NCBI RefSeq assembly: GCF_037201915.1
Contig: NZ_CP147505.1
Span: 2,728,001-2,792,000 of the forward strand
DNA from: Haloplanus sp. CK5-1
GTDB lineage: Archaea; Halobacteriota; Halobacteria; Halobacteriales; Haloferacaceae
Direction: 5' to 3'
Length of the DNA stretch: 64,000 bases
How positions within the stretch are numbered: position 1 is the first letter of the stretch; every line of letters begins with the position of its first letter. A model generated the notes under the pieces. That model was not told where the DNA came from, searched no databases, and saw only the letters and a list, made by a program, of their open reading frames with translations. The position numbers and the translations under genes were made by a program. Below, piece by piece: positions 973 through 25,599 of this stretch.

Positions 973-3549
<2,577 letters not shown>

Positions 3550-8494: not shown

Positions 8495-8500
8495 TATAAA
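8495..8500 (+). promoter_or_regulatory. TATA box of the LOV histidine-kinase gene
   Basis: A perfect TATAAA lies 26 nt before ATG 8521. It supports that ATG, and not the internal GTG at 8663, as the ancestral start of the kinase gene. Confidence 0.65.
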
Positions 8501-8520: not shown

Positions 8521-10375
8521 ATGAGCGGTCGGATGGTGCCCCACGAGACGCCCCCGATGATCGTCCACGAACACGGGCGGATCCTCTATGCCAACGAGCC
8601 CGGTCTATAGTAGCCTTTGTAAGTCATCACACACCTGATCGCATGACAGCGTTCGATCAGGTGTGCGGACAGTTACAAACGCTACTATAGCCCTGTTCGA
8701 GTCTCCCTCTCCGGACGACCTCCTCGGGGAGTCGCTCTTCGAGTTCGTCACGGACCACGACCAGCACTCCCTCGCCGAGCAGTTCGATCGACTCTACGCC
8801 GGGGAGACGTCGTCCGTGGGGAGCACGATCGAACTCTCCACCCCGATCACCGAACCCACGGTCGTCGTCGCGTTGAGTTCCGCCATCGCGTGGGAGGGTG
8901 CCGATCGCATCCAAACTCACTTCTTCGAGATCGACGGCCCGTTGTCGCCGAGCCTCTCGGCCCACACGATGGATGCGACCCCGATCGGTATCTCCGTTGC
9001 GGACGCCACCCGGGACGACGAACCGCTCGTATACGTCAACGAGGGGTTCGTCGAGTTGACCGGCTACTCACGTGACGAGACGCTGGGGCGGAACTGCCGA
9101 TTCCTACAGGGAGAGGGGACGAGCGAGGAGACCGTGGCCGAAATCCGTGCCGCGATCGACGCCAACGAGCCACTCACCACCGACGTACGGAACTACCGGA
9201 AGGACGGGTCGATGTTCTGGAACCGTCTCTCTATTGAGCCGATCCGAGCCGACGATGGAACGGTCACTCACTTTCTCGGCTTTCAGGAGGACGTCTCGGA
9301 CGAGAAACTCTACGAACGGGAGCGAACGCTGTTCGAACTGCAAGCCGATGCGGTCGAACAGACCGTCTTCATCACGGATGCCGACGGCACGATCGTATAC
9401 GTCAATCCGGCGTTCGAACGGACGACGGGCTATACGGCGGACGAAGCGATCGGGAGCAACCCGCGGCTCCTGAAATCCGACCAACAGGACGAGACGTTCT
9501 ACAGCGAGTTGTGGGACACGATCACCGCCGGCGACGTGTGGGACGCGGAGATTGTCAACCGGCGAAAGTCCGGGGAACGGTATCAGGTCGAACAGAAGAT
9601 CGTGCCGATAACTGACGAGCGTGACGAGATCACACATTTCGTCGCCATCGAAGAGGACGTAACGGACGCGCAGTTCATCGAAGAGGTGTTGTCGGTGATG
9701 GACCGGGTGTTGCGACACAACGTCCGCAACTCGGTAACGGCGATCAGTGGGTATGCGGACCTCCTCGAGGGAGAGTTGGACGAATCGGAACATCGTGCGG
9801 CAGTGCAGACGATCCGCGAGCGTGCCGAGGAGTTGGAAAAACTCAGTACCGAAACGCGAACGATCCGCGAACTCTTTCACCGACGCTACGCCCAGCACTC
9901 GCTCTCGGTCGGTGCGATCGAGGGGTTCGTCGAAACACGACGCACGCAACACCCACGTGCCGATATCGAGTTCAGGATGGACGTCGATCCCGGGATCGAG
10001 ATTCAGAACGGGAGTTTGCTCCAGTTGGCGATCGACGAGGCACTCGAGAACGCGATCGTTCACAACGACCGAGACTCCCCCCACGTGACGGTGCTCGTCG
10101 ACCGGACCGAACACGATTCGGAGATCCGCATCGAGATCACCGACGACGGTCCGGGACTCCCCGAGGACCAGTGGGCCGTCATCATGGCCGGTGTCGAAAC
10201 GACGCTCGCACACAGCACCGGCATCGGCCTGTGGTTGATCTACTGGACGGTCACCGCGCTCGGTGGTACGGTACGTCGAACGGACAACGAGCCACGGGGC
10301 ACCACACTCACCTACCGGATACCGGTCGGCGCAGGCGACCACGCCGACCGGTGGAACGACGGGGAGTGGCTCTGA
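8521..10375 (+). pseudogene. LOV/PAS sensor histidine kinase, interrupted by a MITE
   Basis: The ancestral gene starts at ATG 8521 with a PAS domain (MIVHEHGRILYANEPG), then hits an 80-bp insertion that brings an in-frame TAG at 8608-8610. Removing 82 bp (8608-8689) rejoins EPGL-ALFESPS in frame. Downstream are a LOV-type PAS with the photoadduct motif GRNCRFLQG and flavin-contact residues in NYRKDG, FWNR and GFQED. A third PAS (FITDADGTIVYVNPAF), a phosphoacceptor segment LRHNVRNSV and an HATPase with DDGPGLPED follow. Translation could restart at a GTG (8663) supplied by the insertion, giving a 570-residue protein lacking part of the first PAS. It may therefore still make a functional blue-light kinase. 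Confidence 0.85.
8608..8687. mobile_element. 80-bp palindromic MITE with TA target duplication
   Basis: Two 34-bp arms (8608-8641 and 8654-8687) are inverted copies with about 28 of 34 positions matching. They begin TAGTAGC and surround a 12-bp loop. TA dinucleotides flank it at 8606-8607 and 8688-8689. There is no coding capacity. TA duplication points to mobilisation by an IS630/Tc1-type transposase, but its ends differ from the IS630 element at 23471, so the partner is elsewhere. Confidence 0.85.
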
Positions 10376-21055: not shown

Positions 21056-23470
21056 TGACGCAAAAACGGACACTTCCCATCGGACCCAGCGAAACATCGG
21101 AGACAGTCCAATTACTCGTCGCCGATGCTGGAAACCGGTCGACAATCAGTAGAATGCTCGACGACCACTTCGGAGTGGAGACGAGTCAGACCGTAACCGA
21201 CGCCGATCTGTACCTCGTAGAGGATCACCTGTTTCCGGAGTATAGAGTTGCGTTACGCGACCGGATCGAGCGAGAACATCCGGCGTTCTGTCCGGTGGTT
21301 CTGATTCGACGTGAGAGTACGGATCTGAAGCAGGGAAACGGGAACCAGTCTACCCCCGAAGAGGTCACTCTCTACGACGAGGTGGTGGATGCACCGATCG
21401 ACCCATCCCAATTGATCCGGCGACTGAACTCGTTGCTCGTCCGCCGTCGGCAGTCTCAGGAGTTGATGCGGCAGGTCTCGACGTTGGAGGAGCGTGAGCA
21501 ACGCCTCCGCCGTTTCGAGCAATCCGTCGAATCGACCGGGAATGGAATCGTCATGACCGATTCCGCCGGGACGATCGAGTACGTGAATCCGGCTCTCGAA
21601 TCGATGGCCGGATACACTGAAGACGAAGTCCTCGGGGAGTCCCCACAGAGACTCTTGCCCGAAGGAGCTGAAGGAGTCTTCGACGAGGAGTTCTGGGAGA
21701 CGTTAGCGGACCAAGGGGGATGGGAGGGTGACTTCATCATCGAGGGCAAGGATTCTCAACGTCTAGTGGTCAATGCGACGGCTACCGCACTTCAGGATGT
21801 GAACAACCAAACCGAGGGGTTCGTCATCGTACTCAGTGACATCACCGAGCGGATCCAGCATGAACAAGACTTGGAGGACAGAGAAGAGGAACTCGATCTG
21901 CTCCGGAAAATTTTGACGCGATATCTCCGCCACAACATGCGAAACGATCTCAATGTCATCCAAGGCAGTGCAGAGTTGCTGCAAATAGACGGGTCGCTGT
22001 CACCGGAGCAGATCGAACTGACCGAGTCGATTATCGATAAAACGGAAGCCCTCTCCGAGATGAGCGATACGGCACGGACCTACAGTTCACTACTCGGAAG
22101 GGATACCGAGTTGTCCACGTTTGATCTCTCGAAACTCACGACTGAGGCGGTTCGACGAGTCCGACAGACCCACTCTGACGTGACGTTCGAACTCGATGTT
22201 CCCGAAACGTGTGAAATTCGTGCCCGAGAAGGGATTCAACGTGCGTTCGAGGAACTGATCGACAACGCTGCACGGCATAATGATGCGACGGAACCGTGGG
22301 TGCGTATTCGGGTCCGAGACCATGACGGAGCACGAGTGGTAATCGAGGATAACGGGCCGGGCATCGCGAATCAGGAAATGGAGTCTTTGGAAAAGAGGAC
22401 CGAAACACCGCTCACGCACAGTCAGGGTGTCGGCTTATGGCTCAGTAAGTGGCTGATCGAGGGAGTCGAGGGACAGCTATCGATCGAAACAACCGACACA
22501 GGGACACGTGTTACAGTCGAATTTCCTTCGCTTACCAAAATCGGTTCGACGAGGCGAGAAATAACCACGCTGAAAGAGCGCGAACAGCGGCTGCAGACGA
22601 TCAAAGACCGCATGACCGATGCGATACTCGAAGTCGATGCCGATTTCACCGTCACTCATCTCGACGAACGAGCCGAACGCATTTTCGACAAAGAGGCGGA
22701 GACTGTATTGGGTCAACAGTTGTGGGACGTGTTTCCCACTCTCACAGACACGCAGTTCGAACCGGTCATCCGGAACGCGATGGAATCGCGCTTATCAACC
22801 GGTGTCGAAGGGTATTTGGAAGAAGTAGAGGTCGGTCTGGAAGTTAGCATATATCCCGAGTTCGACGGGGGACTTACGTTTTACACCTGCGATATAACGG
22901 AGCGCAAGGAACAAGAGAAAGTACTCACACGCAACACCCGCTCGATGGATGAGGCACCCATCGGCATCACGATTACCGATCCGAGCCAAGAGGACAATCC
23001 CATCATCTACGTGAACGACCGGTTCCGGGAGCTGACTGGCTACTCGGACGCGGAGAGTCTCGGTCGGAACTGTCGGTTCCTCCAAGGCGAGGCCACCGAC
23101 CCCAAACCGGTTGCGAGGATGCGAGAGGCAGTCGACAACGAAGCTCCCGTCTCCGTCGAACTCCGGAACTACCGAAACGACGGCACGGAGTTCTGGAACC
23201 GGGTGTCGATCGCCCCCGTCCGTGACGACGATGGGTCGGTCGTCAATTACGTTGGCTTCCAGCAGGATATATCCGACCAACGACGGCGCGAGCGGGTTCT
23301 CCGGAATATGTATGACATTATTTCGGATCGACACCAGTCGTTCGAGGACAAAGTACAGTCACTACTGGAACTCGGTCGAAGTGAACTCGGCACGGAGTAC
23401 GGGACGCTGTCGGAGATCCGCGGTGAGGAGTACGTGTTCGAGTTCGTCGCGACGGACGACGACAGCATTC

Positions 23471-24594
23471 ATAGTGTCTAGGGAACTGTTTTACCGATAG
23501 AGACGCTGGCGTTGGTAATGGGTCGGCTTGACGATATCACGCTCGAAGAACTCTACGATCTCAAGGACCAGATCGACGAAGGGAAGCCGCGAGAACGTGT
23601 TCTCGCGGCGATCGGGCGCAAGAAGGGCGATCAACTGGATACACTGGCTGACCGCCACGGTGTTGTCGAGAAAACGATTCGCAACTGGCTCGATCGGTTC
23701 AAGGAAGAACCGATCGAGCAGGCACCTTACGACGCTCCTCGACCAGGAGGTCCAGCAAAAATCGAGGGCAAAGATCGTGAGCGACTGTTCGAGCAGTTGC
23801 AACAGCCGCCGACCGAACTCGGATACGACCAGCAAGCGTGGTCAGCGAAACTCTTGCTTCATCACGCCAAAGAGGAATACGGCGTCGAATACCACGAAAC
23901 CTACGCGTATGACTTGTTGAAAGAGGCCGGGCTGTCCTTGCGGACAGCACGGCCTCAACATCATGAAGCCGACCCTGAAGAGAAAACTGAGTTTCAGGAG
24001 ACAGTCGAAAAAAACGGCCCGAACTAACCGAGAAAACTGTCGTTGTTGTCGATCAGTTCACCAAGCACGTCGGAACTGTTCAGCGACGTGGCTTCTACCC
24101 AATTGGCTCAAACCCGACAATAGAGGTTGCAACAGCGTGGGATTCAGTGACGGTGCTGGGCGCTGTCACCGACGACGGTGACAGCTTCTTCTGCTGGACA
24201 GAAGAGAATCTCACACGGAACCACGGGATTCGGCTGTTAGAAGCGCTGAAAGACAAGTTCGGTGAGGAGTTAGTGGTGTTTCTGGATCGAGCGGGTTACT
24301 TCTACGCGAGGGATCTGTGGGAGCACGTGAGTGGTGAGCGCGAGACCGAAACTGTCGGAGACAGTTCGGTCTCGTGCGTGCGAGGGGATGATCTCGAAGT
24401 GTGGTACTTCCCGTCGAAACTTCCCGAATTGAACGCTGTCGAAGGGTGCTGGGACCAATTGCAAGAGTGGTTCAAGTATCGCCTTATGCCAGATCTCTCG
24501 ACGCTGAAAGAATGCATTCCACGAGGATTGAGCGCGATCACCGAACCGAACATCTGGCCGTATCTCACCGGTAAAGATTCGAACTAAACACTAT
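23471..24594. mobile_element. IS630-family insertion sequence
   Basis: The ends are inverted: ATAGTGTCTAG at 23471-23481 and CTAAACACTAT at 24584-24594, matching at 10 of 11 positions. An inner TTTACCG match lies on both sides. A C flanks each end; the short target duplication is ambiguous (C or CA). The element is about 1.12 kb and carries one transposase in two overlapping frames. It interrupts the double-kinase gene. Confidence 0.85.
23518..24587 (+). CDS. IS630-family transposase in two frames, candidate -1 frameshift
   Basis: The first frame (ATG 23518 to stop 24025-24027) encodes the helix-turn-helix region (LADRHGVVEKTIRNWLDRFK) and the linker. The second, in the -1 frame, gives the DDE core: aspartate in KTVVVVDQFTKH, aspartate in VVFLDRAGYF and glutamate in LPELNAVEGCWDQLQ. 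The switch point is a run of seven A at 24008-24014 followed by C, so codons GAA-AAA-AAC form the slippery heptamer A AAA AAC (24009-24015) in the register needed for a -1 slip. Programmed frameshifting is a good explanation. A simple one-base lesion is the alternative. Confidence 0.75.
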
Positions 24595-25599
24595 CAGTCG
24601 GGGGACGTAGTGCCGGTCTCAGCCACGAACTGCGAACTCGTCGCCAGTTCCGAGGAAACCATCGTGGCCGGTGATATCGAACGCGATGCCCCAGGACAGA
24701 CCGACCGGGCTGGCTTCACCGAGTGGGGGATCGTATGTTATCTCGGAGCTCCCGTGTTTATCAGTGACGAAGTCTACGGAACGTTCTGTTTCTACGGCAC
24801 GGAGGCCCGGTCCGGTCAGTTCTCCGAGTGGGAAGTCACGCTGGTTGATCTCATGAGTCGCTGGGTGAGCTACGAACTTCAGCACCGAGAAGCGAACAAA
24901 CAACTCCAACGGACGAACGAACGGTTGGAGCAATTTGCGTCGGTCGTGTCGCACGACCTGCGGAATCCCCTCAATGTCGCCGATGGTCGCTTGGAGCTGG
25001 TGGACGAAGAGTGCGACAGTGCCCACCTCGATGCCATCCGACGAGCGCTTGATCGAATGGATGCGCTGATCACCGATTTGCTAGCGCTCGCGCGGGAGGG
25101 CGACAGTAAGACTGAGATAACCTCGGTCGACCTCGCGATGCTTGCGGAGAACTGTTGGAACAACGTCGATACTGGAAATACGAACATCGCCACCGATATC
25201 GATCGGACGGTTCGAGCCGATGAAGGCCGACTGAGCCAGATATTCGAGAATCTCATTCGCAACGCTGTCGAACACGGCGGTGGCGATGTGACGGTCCGAG
25301 TCGGCGAACTGGACGACGGTTTTTACATCGAGGACGACGGAGTAGGTATTCCCGAAGACGAACGTGACGACGTGTTCGACACAGGCTACTCGACAAGCGA
25401 CAAGGGAACCGGATTTGGGCTGAGCATCGTCAAGCAGGTCGTCGATGCCCACGGCTGGAGGATCCATCTGACTGAAGCCTCCGGGGGTGGTACGCGGTTC
25501 GAGATCACCGGCGTCGAGTTCGCTGCCGAATAGATCCGCTGTATTCAGCACATCTCGACAGTTATCGAGTAGTTCGCTCGAGCCGGGCTGAACGTGGGA

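Follow-up and report, generated by a model that had tools for sequence, protein, structure and literature searches.

The closest described counterparts of the element reported here are insertion sequences of the IS630 family and the short repeats of haloarchaea. Excerpts of PMC2170065 report a demonstration of TA-targeted cut-and-paste transposition for an IS630-family element, and the titles of papers cited there are our source for the preference of IS630 for CTAG. Prokaryotic MITEs are reviewed in PMC10969869 (used in part), and the available portion of PMC3119063 describes MITEs, SMRs and PATEs in Haloquadratum, together with an avoidance of CTAG on its chromosome. Among the titles listed in literature searches none concerns an 80-bp haloarchaeal MITE of the IS630 type, and the element may already be listed in ISfinder.

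Here we describe such an element within a gene of Haloplanus sp. CK5-1, located in the window, the whole stretch of 64,000 nt that was analyzed. From its copies, their flanks, insert-free sites, the reading frame and homology, we conclude with high confidence that a non-autonomous MITE of the IS630/Tc1 type broke a kinase gene at CTAG; we infer that the insertion, which looks recent, most likely inactivates the gene, and that the element was probably moved by an ISNpe3-like transposase. The 80-bp element would have entered a multi-PAS/LOV histidine kinase gene within the part encoding its N-terminal PAS domain, at the sequence CTAG (a Leu codon CTA, then G), duplicating the TA and setting an in-frame TAG directly after codon 29. 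An ISNpe3-like IS630 transposase most likely acted in trans, cutting at the ends of the element and pasting it at TA. The gene breakage is an ordinary one, by an already known kind of mobile DNA. Its relevance is that one genome shows a very short MITE disabling genes at CTAG sites, and that the 28 copies, together with the comparison sites available for 9, provide material for testing IS630 mobilization in Archaea. The features of the locus, in window coordinates, are these:

8495–8499, + strand: TATA-like stretch, some 24 nt before the ATG, read in the sequence; possible native promoter of a leaderless mRNA
8521–8610, + strand: 5' piece of the kinase gene, in which 29 codons precede the TAG, read in the sequence and aligning with the N-termini of homologues
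8606–8607, no strand: left copy of the duplicated target TA, from the flanks of 28 copies and insert-free sites; the original site was presumably CTAG
8608–8687, + strand: the 80-bp MITE, defined by 28 full-length genome copies and by 36 selected family rows, ungapped at 84 columns including both TAs
8623–8625, + strand: left half (GTC) of a mispaired block, conserved within the GTDB family and changed in 2 of 7 plasmid copies
8629–8666, + strand: inner palindrome with arms 8629–8645 and 8650–8666, from pair counts and predicted folds
8663–8665, + strand: in-frame GTG in the right arm, a doubtful start codon, with an open frame and paired in the predicted mRNA
8670–8672, + strand: the CAG that forms the right half of the mispaired block; like the GTC it is conserved within the GTDB family, and it is changed in 5 of 7 plasmid copies
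8688–8689, no strand: right copy of the duplicated target TA, from the same flanks and insert-free sites
8690–10375, + strand: rest of the kinase gene on the 3' side, with a frame that runs uninterrupted to its stop and Pfam domains
9008–9301, + strand: PAS_9 domain (Pfam) taken as LOV, with the motif GRNCRFLQ inside it
9341–9658, + strand: following PAS domain (Pfam)
9707–9847, + strand: HisKA-like region (Pfam), 26.5 bits, just below the cut-off of 26.9
10013–10327, + strand: HATPase_c domain (Pfam)

The spacing of the TATA-like stretch would fit a leaderless gene under haloarchaeal promoter rules. From the ATG at 8521 the native frame ends at the TAG at 8608–8610, after 29 codons; the stop that an earlier, sequence-only reading had placed at the entry point is indeed in frame. 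When the 82 bp are removed in a script, a single frame runs from 8521 to 10375 (591 codons including a single stop), exactly the rejoining EPGL-ALFESPS that had been claimed, and the number of PAS_9 stretches found by Pfam rises from two to three. The product combines PAS/LOV, HisKA and HATPase_c regions, with HisKA just under its cut-off; we take GRNCRFLQ in the PAS_9 domain to be the LOV signature. A scan of a genome collection gave 80 loci, from which 18 kinase homologues were read and 17 aligned, and all 17 are ungapped across the insertion point; none carries the same 82 bp or is missing the flanking residues, which supports the view that a LOV-type kinase was broken by the MITE. The rejoined N-terminal piece is 43% identical to the homologue L044 over 107 residues. 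The uninterrupted form is seen only in homologues of 46–62% identity, and in the genus genomes a search at E <= 1e-80 found no relative of the kinase with more than about 50% identity. A separate lesion occurs in L043, a kinase homologue from the halophilic archaeon SHRA6 that was excluded from the alignment of 17: a nonsense TAG at 3025–3027, where its near twin L044 has TAC, lies three residues beyond the point that corresponds to the MITE junction.

Positions 8606–8689 read as TA, an 80-bp near-palindrome and TA again, so that the claimed TA on both sides is present. Two 34-bp arms had also been proposed; inverted arms do exist (8602–8641 and 8654–8693, 40 nt with 83% complementarity in a repeat search), but they do not pair cleanly, since an outer part of 17 bp with one mismatch is followed by the mispaired block and then by the inner palindrome. 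Folded as single-stranded DNA, the element reaches -25.8 kcal/mol against a mean of -8.2 for shuffled sequences (z -8.4), and none of 200 shuffles equals it. It is short, non-coding and bounded by terminal inverted repeats, and 80 bp are too few for a transposase. A sequence search of its own genome (one contig of 3,243,851 bases) gave 61 matches: 28 full-length places, each of them matched a second time on the reverse strand (28 matches), and 5 short pieces. The 28 dispersed copies in this 3.24-Mb genome, which answer the question of whether the arms recur, share the same boundaries; 25 are 97–100% identical and three 87–89%. Because of these copies, the inverted-arm hairpin is confirmed as real rather than a product of chance. 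Copies, flanks and insert-free sites together support the description of an 80-bp MITE with TA duplication, which we assign to the IS630 type. No match occurs in 50,697 phage records, as a phage origin might have left; ten viral contigs contain the exact 17-base end, one exact match each, which we take as chance. The sole Rfam match up to E 1 is mir-3912, whose 29 bits fall far under the gathering score of 95 and are taken to reflect a chance hairpin.

TA flanks with a preference for CTAG, as sought in an IS630-derived element, are found, with CTAG at 22 of the 28 insertions (L036 scored as CTAG despite an altered right TA) and other sequences at L007, L030, L032, L033, L035 and L037. In the window only 31 of 1327 TA sites lie in CTAG, a motif under-represented there (31 observed, 85 expected), and the binomial chance of at least 22 in 28 is about 4e-31, a value based on the window-only background with copies treated as independent. 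As an observation in its own right, L004 and L020 hold two copies in opposite orientations at the same CTAG of apparently one repeated host sequence.

Insert-free sites were sought by comparing the 28 joined 200-base flanks with 12 genus genomes, and for 9 of the 28 sites homologous sequence spans the junction without the insert; the other 19, the kinase site included, fall outside this set. The insert is absent from all 20 stretches fetched for these nine sites, one of which (for L002) is a second place in the same genome and the rest from relatives. The target TA is kept in the stretches read at five sites (L004, L007, L026, L028 and L031), with the full CTAG at L026 and L031, and is absent at four: L002, L005 (CTGG in 4 of 4 relatives of 90–94% identity), L025 (CTGG and CCGG) and L029 (CTGG). 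Small gaps lie near the junction in the L002, L004 and L026 alignments. The four TA-less sites demonstrate that the insert is missing there, not that the target was duplicated, and a substitution to TA before insertion is assumed for them; together with the altered block in plasmid copies, they slightly lower our confidence in the main explanation.

The kinase is not the only gene that was hit. Of the 28 copies, at least 5 have flanks that yield a coding frame when joined: besides the kinase described above, these frames encode a second LOV-type kinase, a PAS-containing transducer, a nucleoside phosphorylase and a DUF5684 protein. In the second LOV-type kinase (L023 and L123; G000:C1:3219975-3221397), joining the flanks restores MDEAPL-GITIADPSQ, and the element sits in the same orientation and codon phase as in the first, so that the insert is present in two of the genome's three genes from this kinase group, a pattern noticed after the fact. 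The upstream part of this second gene reads as if interrupted by another, putative insertion sequence. A further copy lies upstream of a TFB gene.

Profile search of the genome gave 20 DDE_3 hits. Among these IS630-type elements, an ISNpe3-like group has five copies of about 1060 bp with two transposase frames, the DDE-bearing one (163 aa) being 98% identical to ISNpe3. Its ends, CTATAGTAACCGTTAGAA and CTATAGTAGGCATTAGAA, are TATAGTA ends flanked by TA; of the five copies, three lie in CTAG, one in ATAG and one in TTAG. The sequence-only reading had anticipated an IS630-type element with the same ends as the MITE; an IS630 element is present, with ends that are similar rather than identical, agreeing at only 13 of 17 positions. 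Over positions 7–24, the MITE of this genome agrees with 50 distinct IS ends of the ISNpe3 clade (23 left, 27 right) at a mean of 7.2–9.7 of 18, compared with 5.4 for 42 other TATAGT sites; the IS ends were chosen by motif, and among the control sites two are MITE ends and two or more are probably IS ends. At positions 16–24 the left end of the MITE is nearer to IS right ends (5.4 vs 4.1 of 9) and its right end to IS left ends (5.9 vs 3.6), a contrast that for the right end shrinks to 6.2 vs 5.5 with the family consensus. This subterminal likeness supports, without proof, an ISNpe3-like transposase as the candidate helper.

That a different, unseen transposase moves the MITE is, in our judgment, rather unlikely. 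It would account for the lack of a longer element with the same ends in the places searched: within 3 mismatches of 17, the genome offers no second end at an IS-like distance, a helper with identical ends is missing, and two weak end matches stand alone at 378115 and 2540165. It would also suit the eight of ten MITE-bearing genus genomes in which an ISNpe3-like transposase has no match at E <= 1e-25. Against it, no TA-flanked ends found in the genome come closer than the ISNpe3-like ones, the MITE matches the left/right asymmetry of these at positions 16–24, three of the five ISNpe3-like copies share the CTAG target, and the other IS630 groups of the genome, considered as helpers, were rejected for their different ends. 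Among 20 more distant IS630 stretches, TATAGTA ends stand beside the transposase only in members of the ISNpe3 clade, and 11–12 IS630 places at about 40% identity show no TATAGTA end pair beside the transposase.

Two side observations concern the remaining IS630-like elements. The DDE_3 groups B, C and D (window 23469–24596, or L146, and others) appear to make 3-bp TNA duplications (TCA, TGA, TAA); by eye, TNA rather than TA is duplicated in all 16 copies listed, 14 from this genome and two from another genus genome. At about 2507–2596 of L160, two TATAGTTGCTTTGAAAC ends lie close together on one strand, suggesting other short elements beside an IS630 copy.

The MITE has relatives in several families of haloarchaea, and their length hardly varies. 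Matches were found in 10 of 12 genus genomes and, with up to five candidates scored per genome, in at least 38 of 170 genomes of the GTDB family (9 of 28 genera). Among plasmid records 36 match, those opened coming from four haloarchaeal families, and in 27 a single place spans 80% or more of the query, with query and record spans equal in length. Thirty-six rows selected among copies from this genome, the genus and the family, three of them reversed in orientation, align without gaps at 84 columns, an outcome favored by the best-BLAST choice of rows; 90.0% of their cells are paired, positions 18 and 20 never pair and position 19 always does. Among the matches listed for four genomes, the ends are spaced at 67 in 51 of 58 pairs, at 66 in four, and at 63, 68 and 94 in one each, while no partner was seen for 24 of the 82 forward ends and 10 of the 68 reverse ones. 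Five end pairs 1.4–2.2 kb apart in G093 were considered as a longer element and rejected, since their ends belong to separate short elements: in four of the five both ends are paired within such elements, and the unpaired left end of the fifth is itself a MITE match. Seven plasmid copies from seven genera, chosen from the 36 records, all fit the 84-base frame, six of them in C..G. At least four of the seven have their inner pairing shifted out of register and, together with the alterations of the GTC/CAG block, this shows a fine structure that is conserved inside the GTDB family and less so beyond it.

Two further readings were weighed. The first, which we put forward as a tentative possibility, is a haloarchaea-wide family of mobile hairpins with a roughly fixed length of 80 bp, in which covarying arms and unequal ends would reflect a structural need of ISNpe3-like mobilization and which would aim at the avoided CTAG; the four TA-less insert-free sites and the altered block of the plasmid copies lower its standing slightly. 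The second, that selection on the fold itself maintains a structured element (an RNA or DNA hairpin), seems to us improbable: the ungapped rows, the recurring end spacing and 12 two-sided pair changes (7.3 in shuffles, 3–7 in slid controls) speak for it, but at least 9 of 28 insertions have homologous places that lack them and are therefore young, end recognition or correction within the palindrome can also keep arms matched, row choice favors ungapped copies, pairing and block deteriorate in plasmid copies of other genera, and the Rfam match is far too weak.

A further reading is that the MITE yields a truncated, working sensor, started at the GTG at 8663 or the next in-frame ATG at 8969 and consisting of LOV, PAS and kinase regions without the N-terminal PAS domain. 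The GTG is in frame with the rest of the kinase, as had been noted, opening 570 aa, and the Pfam LOV, PAS and ATPase domains are intact. In-frame starts inside the element, open to the remainder of the gene, are present in four of the five genic insertions (a GTG in both kinases and the DUF5684 gene, both a GTG and an ATG in the transducer, which carries the element in reverse, and none in the nucleoside phosphorylase), which slightly raises this reading, although codon phase and orientation alone can explain them and an open 3' frame is expected anyway after a recent insertion. The claim that the MITE supplies a working start is not supported: the predicted RNA fold of 8521–8760 places the GTG inside the inner stem, and by eye no TATA-like box or Shine-Dalgarno-like run is seen at a suitable distance. 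A scan for bacterial promoters and terminators, not suited to Archaea, returned nothing. A working truncated sensor is therefore judged unlikely, and we give it little credence beside inactivation by an IS630-type MITE. ORF callers may nevertheless begin the broken kinase at the GTG, as happened in the mechanical ORF list here.

Compared with known systems, the element resembles the MITEs and SMRs of Haloquadratum in being a short, transposase-free repeat with terminal inverted repeats, and the SMR HqIRS41 is likewise 80 bp (PMC3119063, available portion). According to the same portion, SMRs reportedly lack a target duplication and have ends unlike those of known transposons, and PATEs, which are related to IS605, have neither terminal inverted repeats nor a target duplication. 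We rejected both assignments, as the element has TA duplication and IS630-like ends against the former, and inverted repeats and duplication against the latter; the putative Haloquadratum C23 chromosome contains no match to the MITE ends with up to 2 mismatches. IS630 of Shigella sonnei shares the preference for TA within 5'-CTAG-3', as known from titles cited in PMC2170065, and differs in being autonomous and bacterial. The element is also like ISNpe3, an IS630-family element of Natrinema pellirubrum, and its relatives. Their copies in this genome differ from the MITE in length (about 1060 bp), in carrying two transposase frames and at 4 of 17 end positions, and they share with it the TATAGTA ends, the TA flanks, the frequent CTAG target and a similar subterminal asymmetry.
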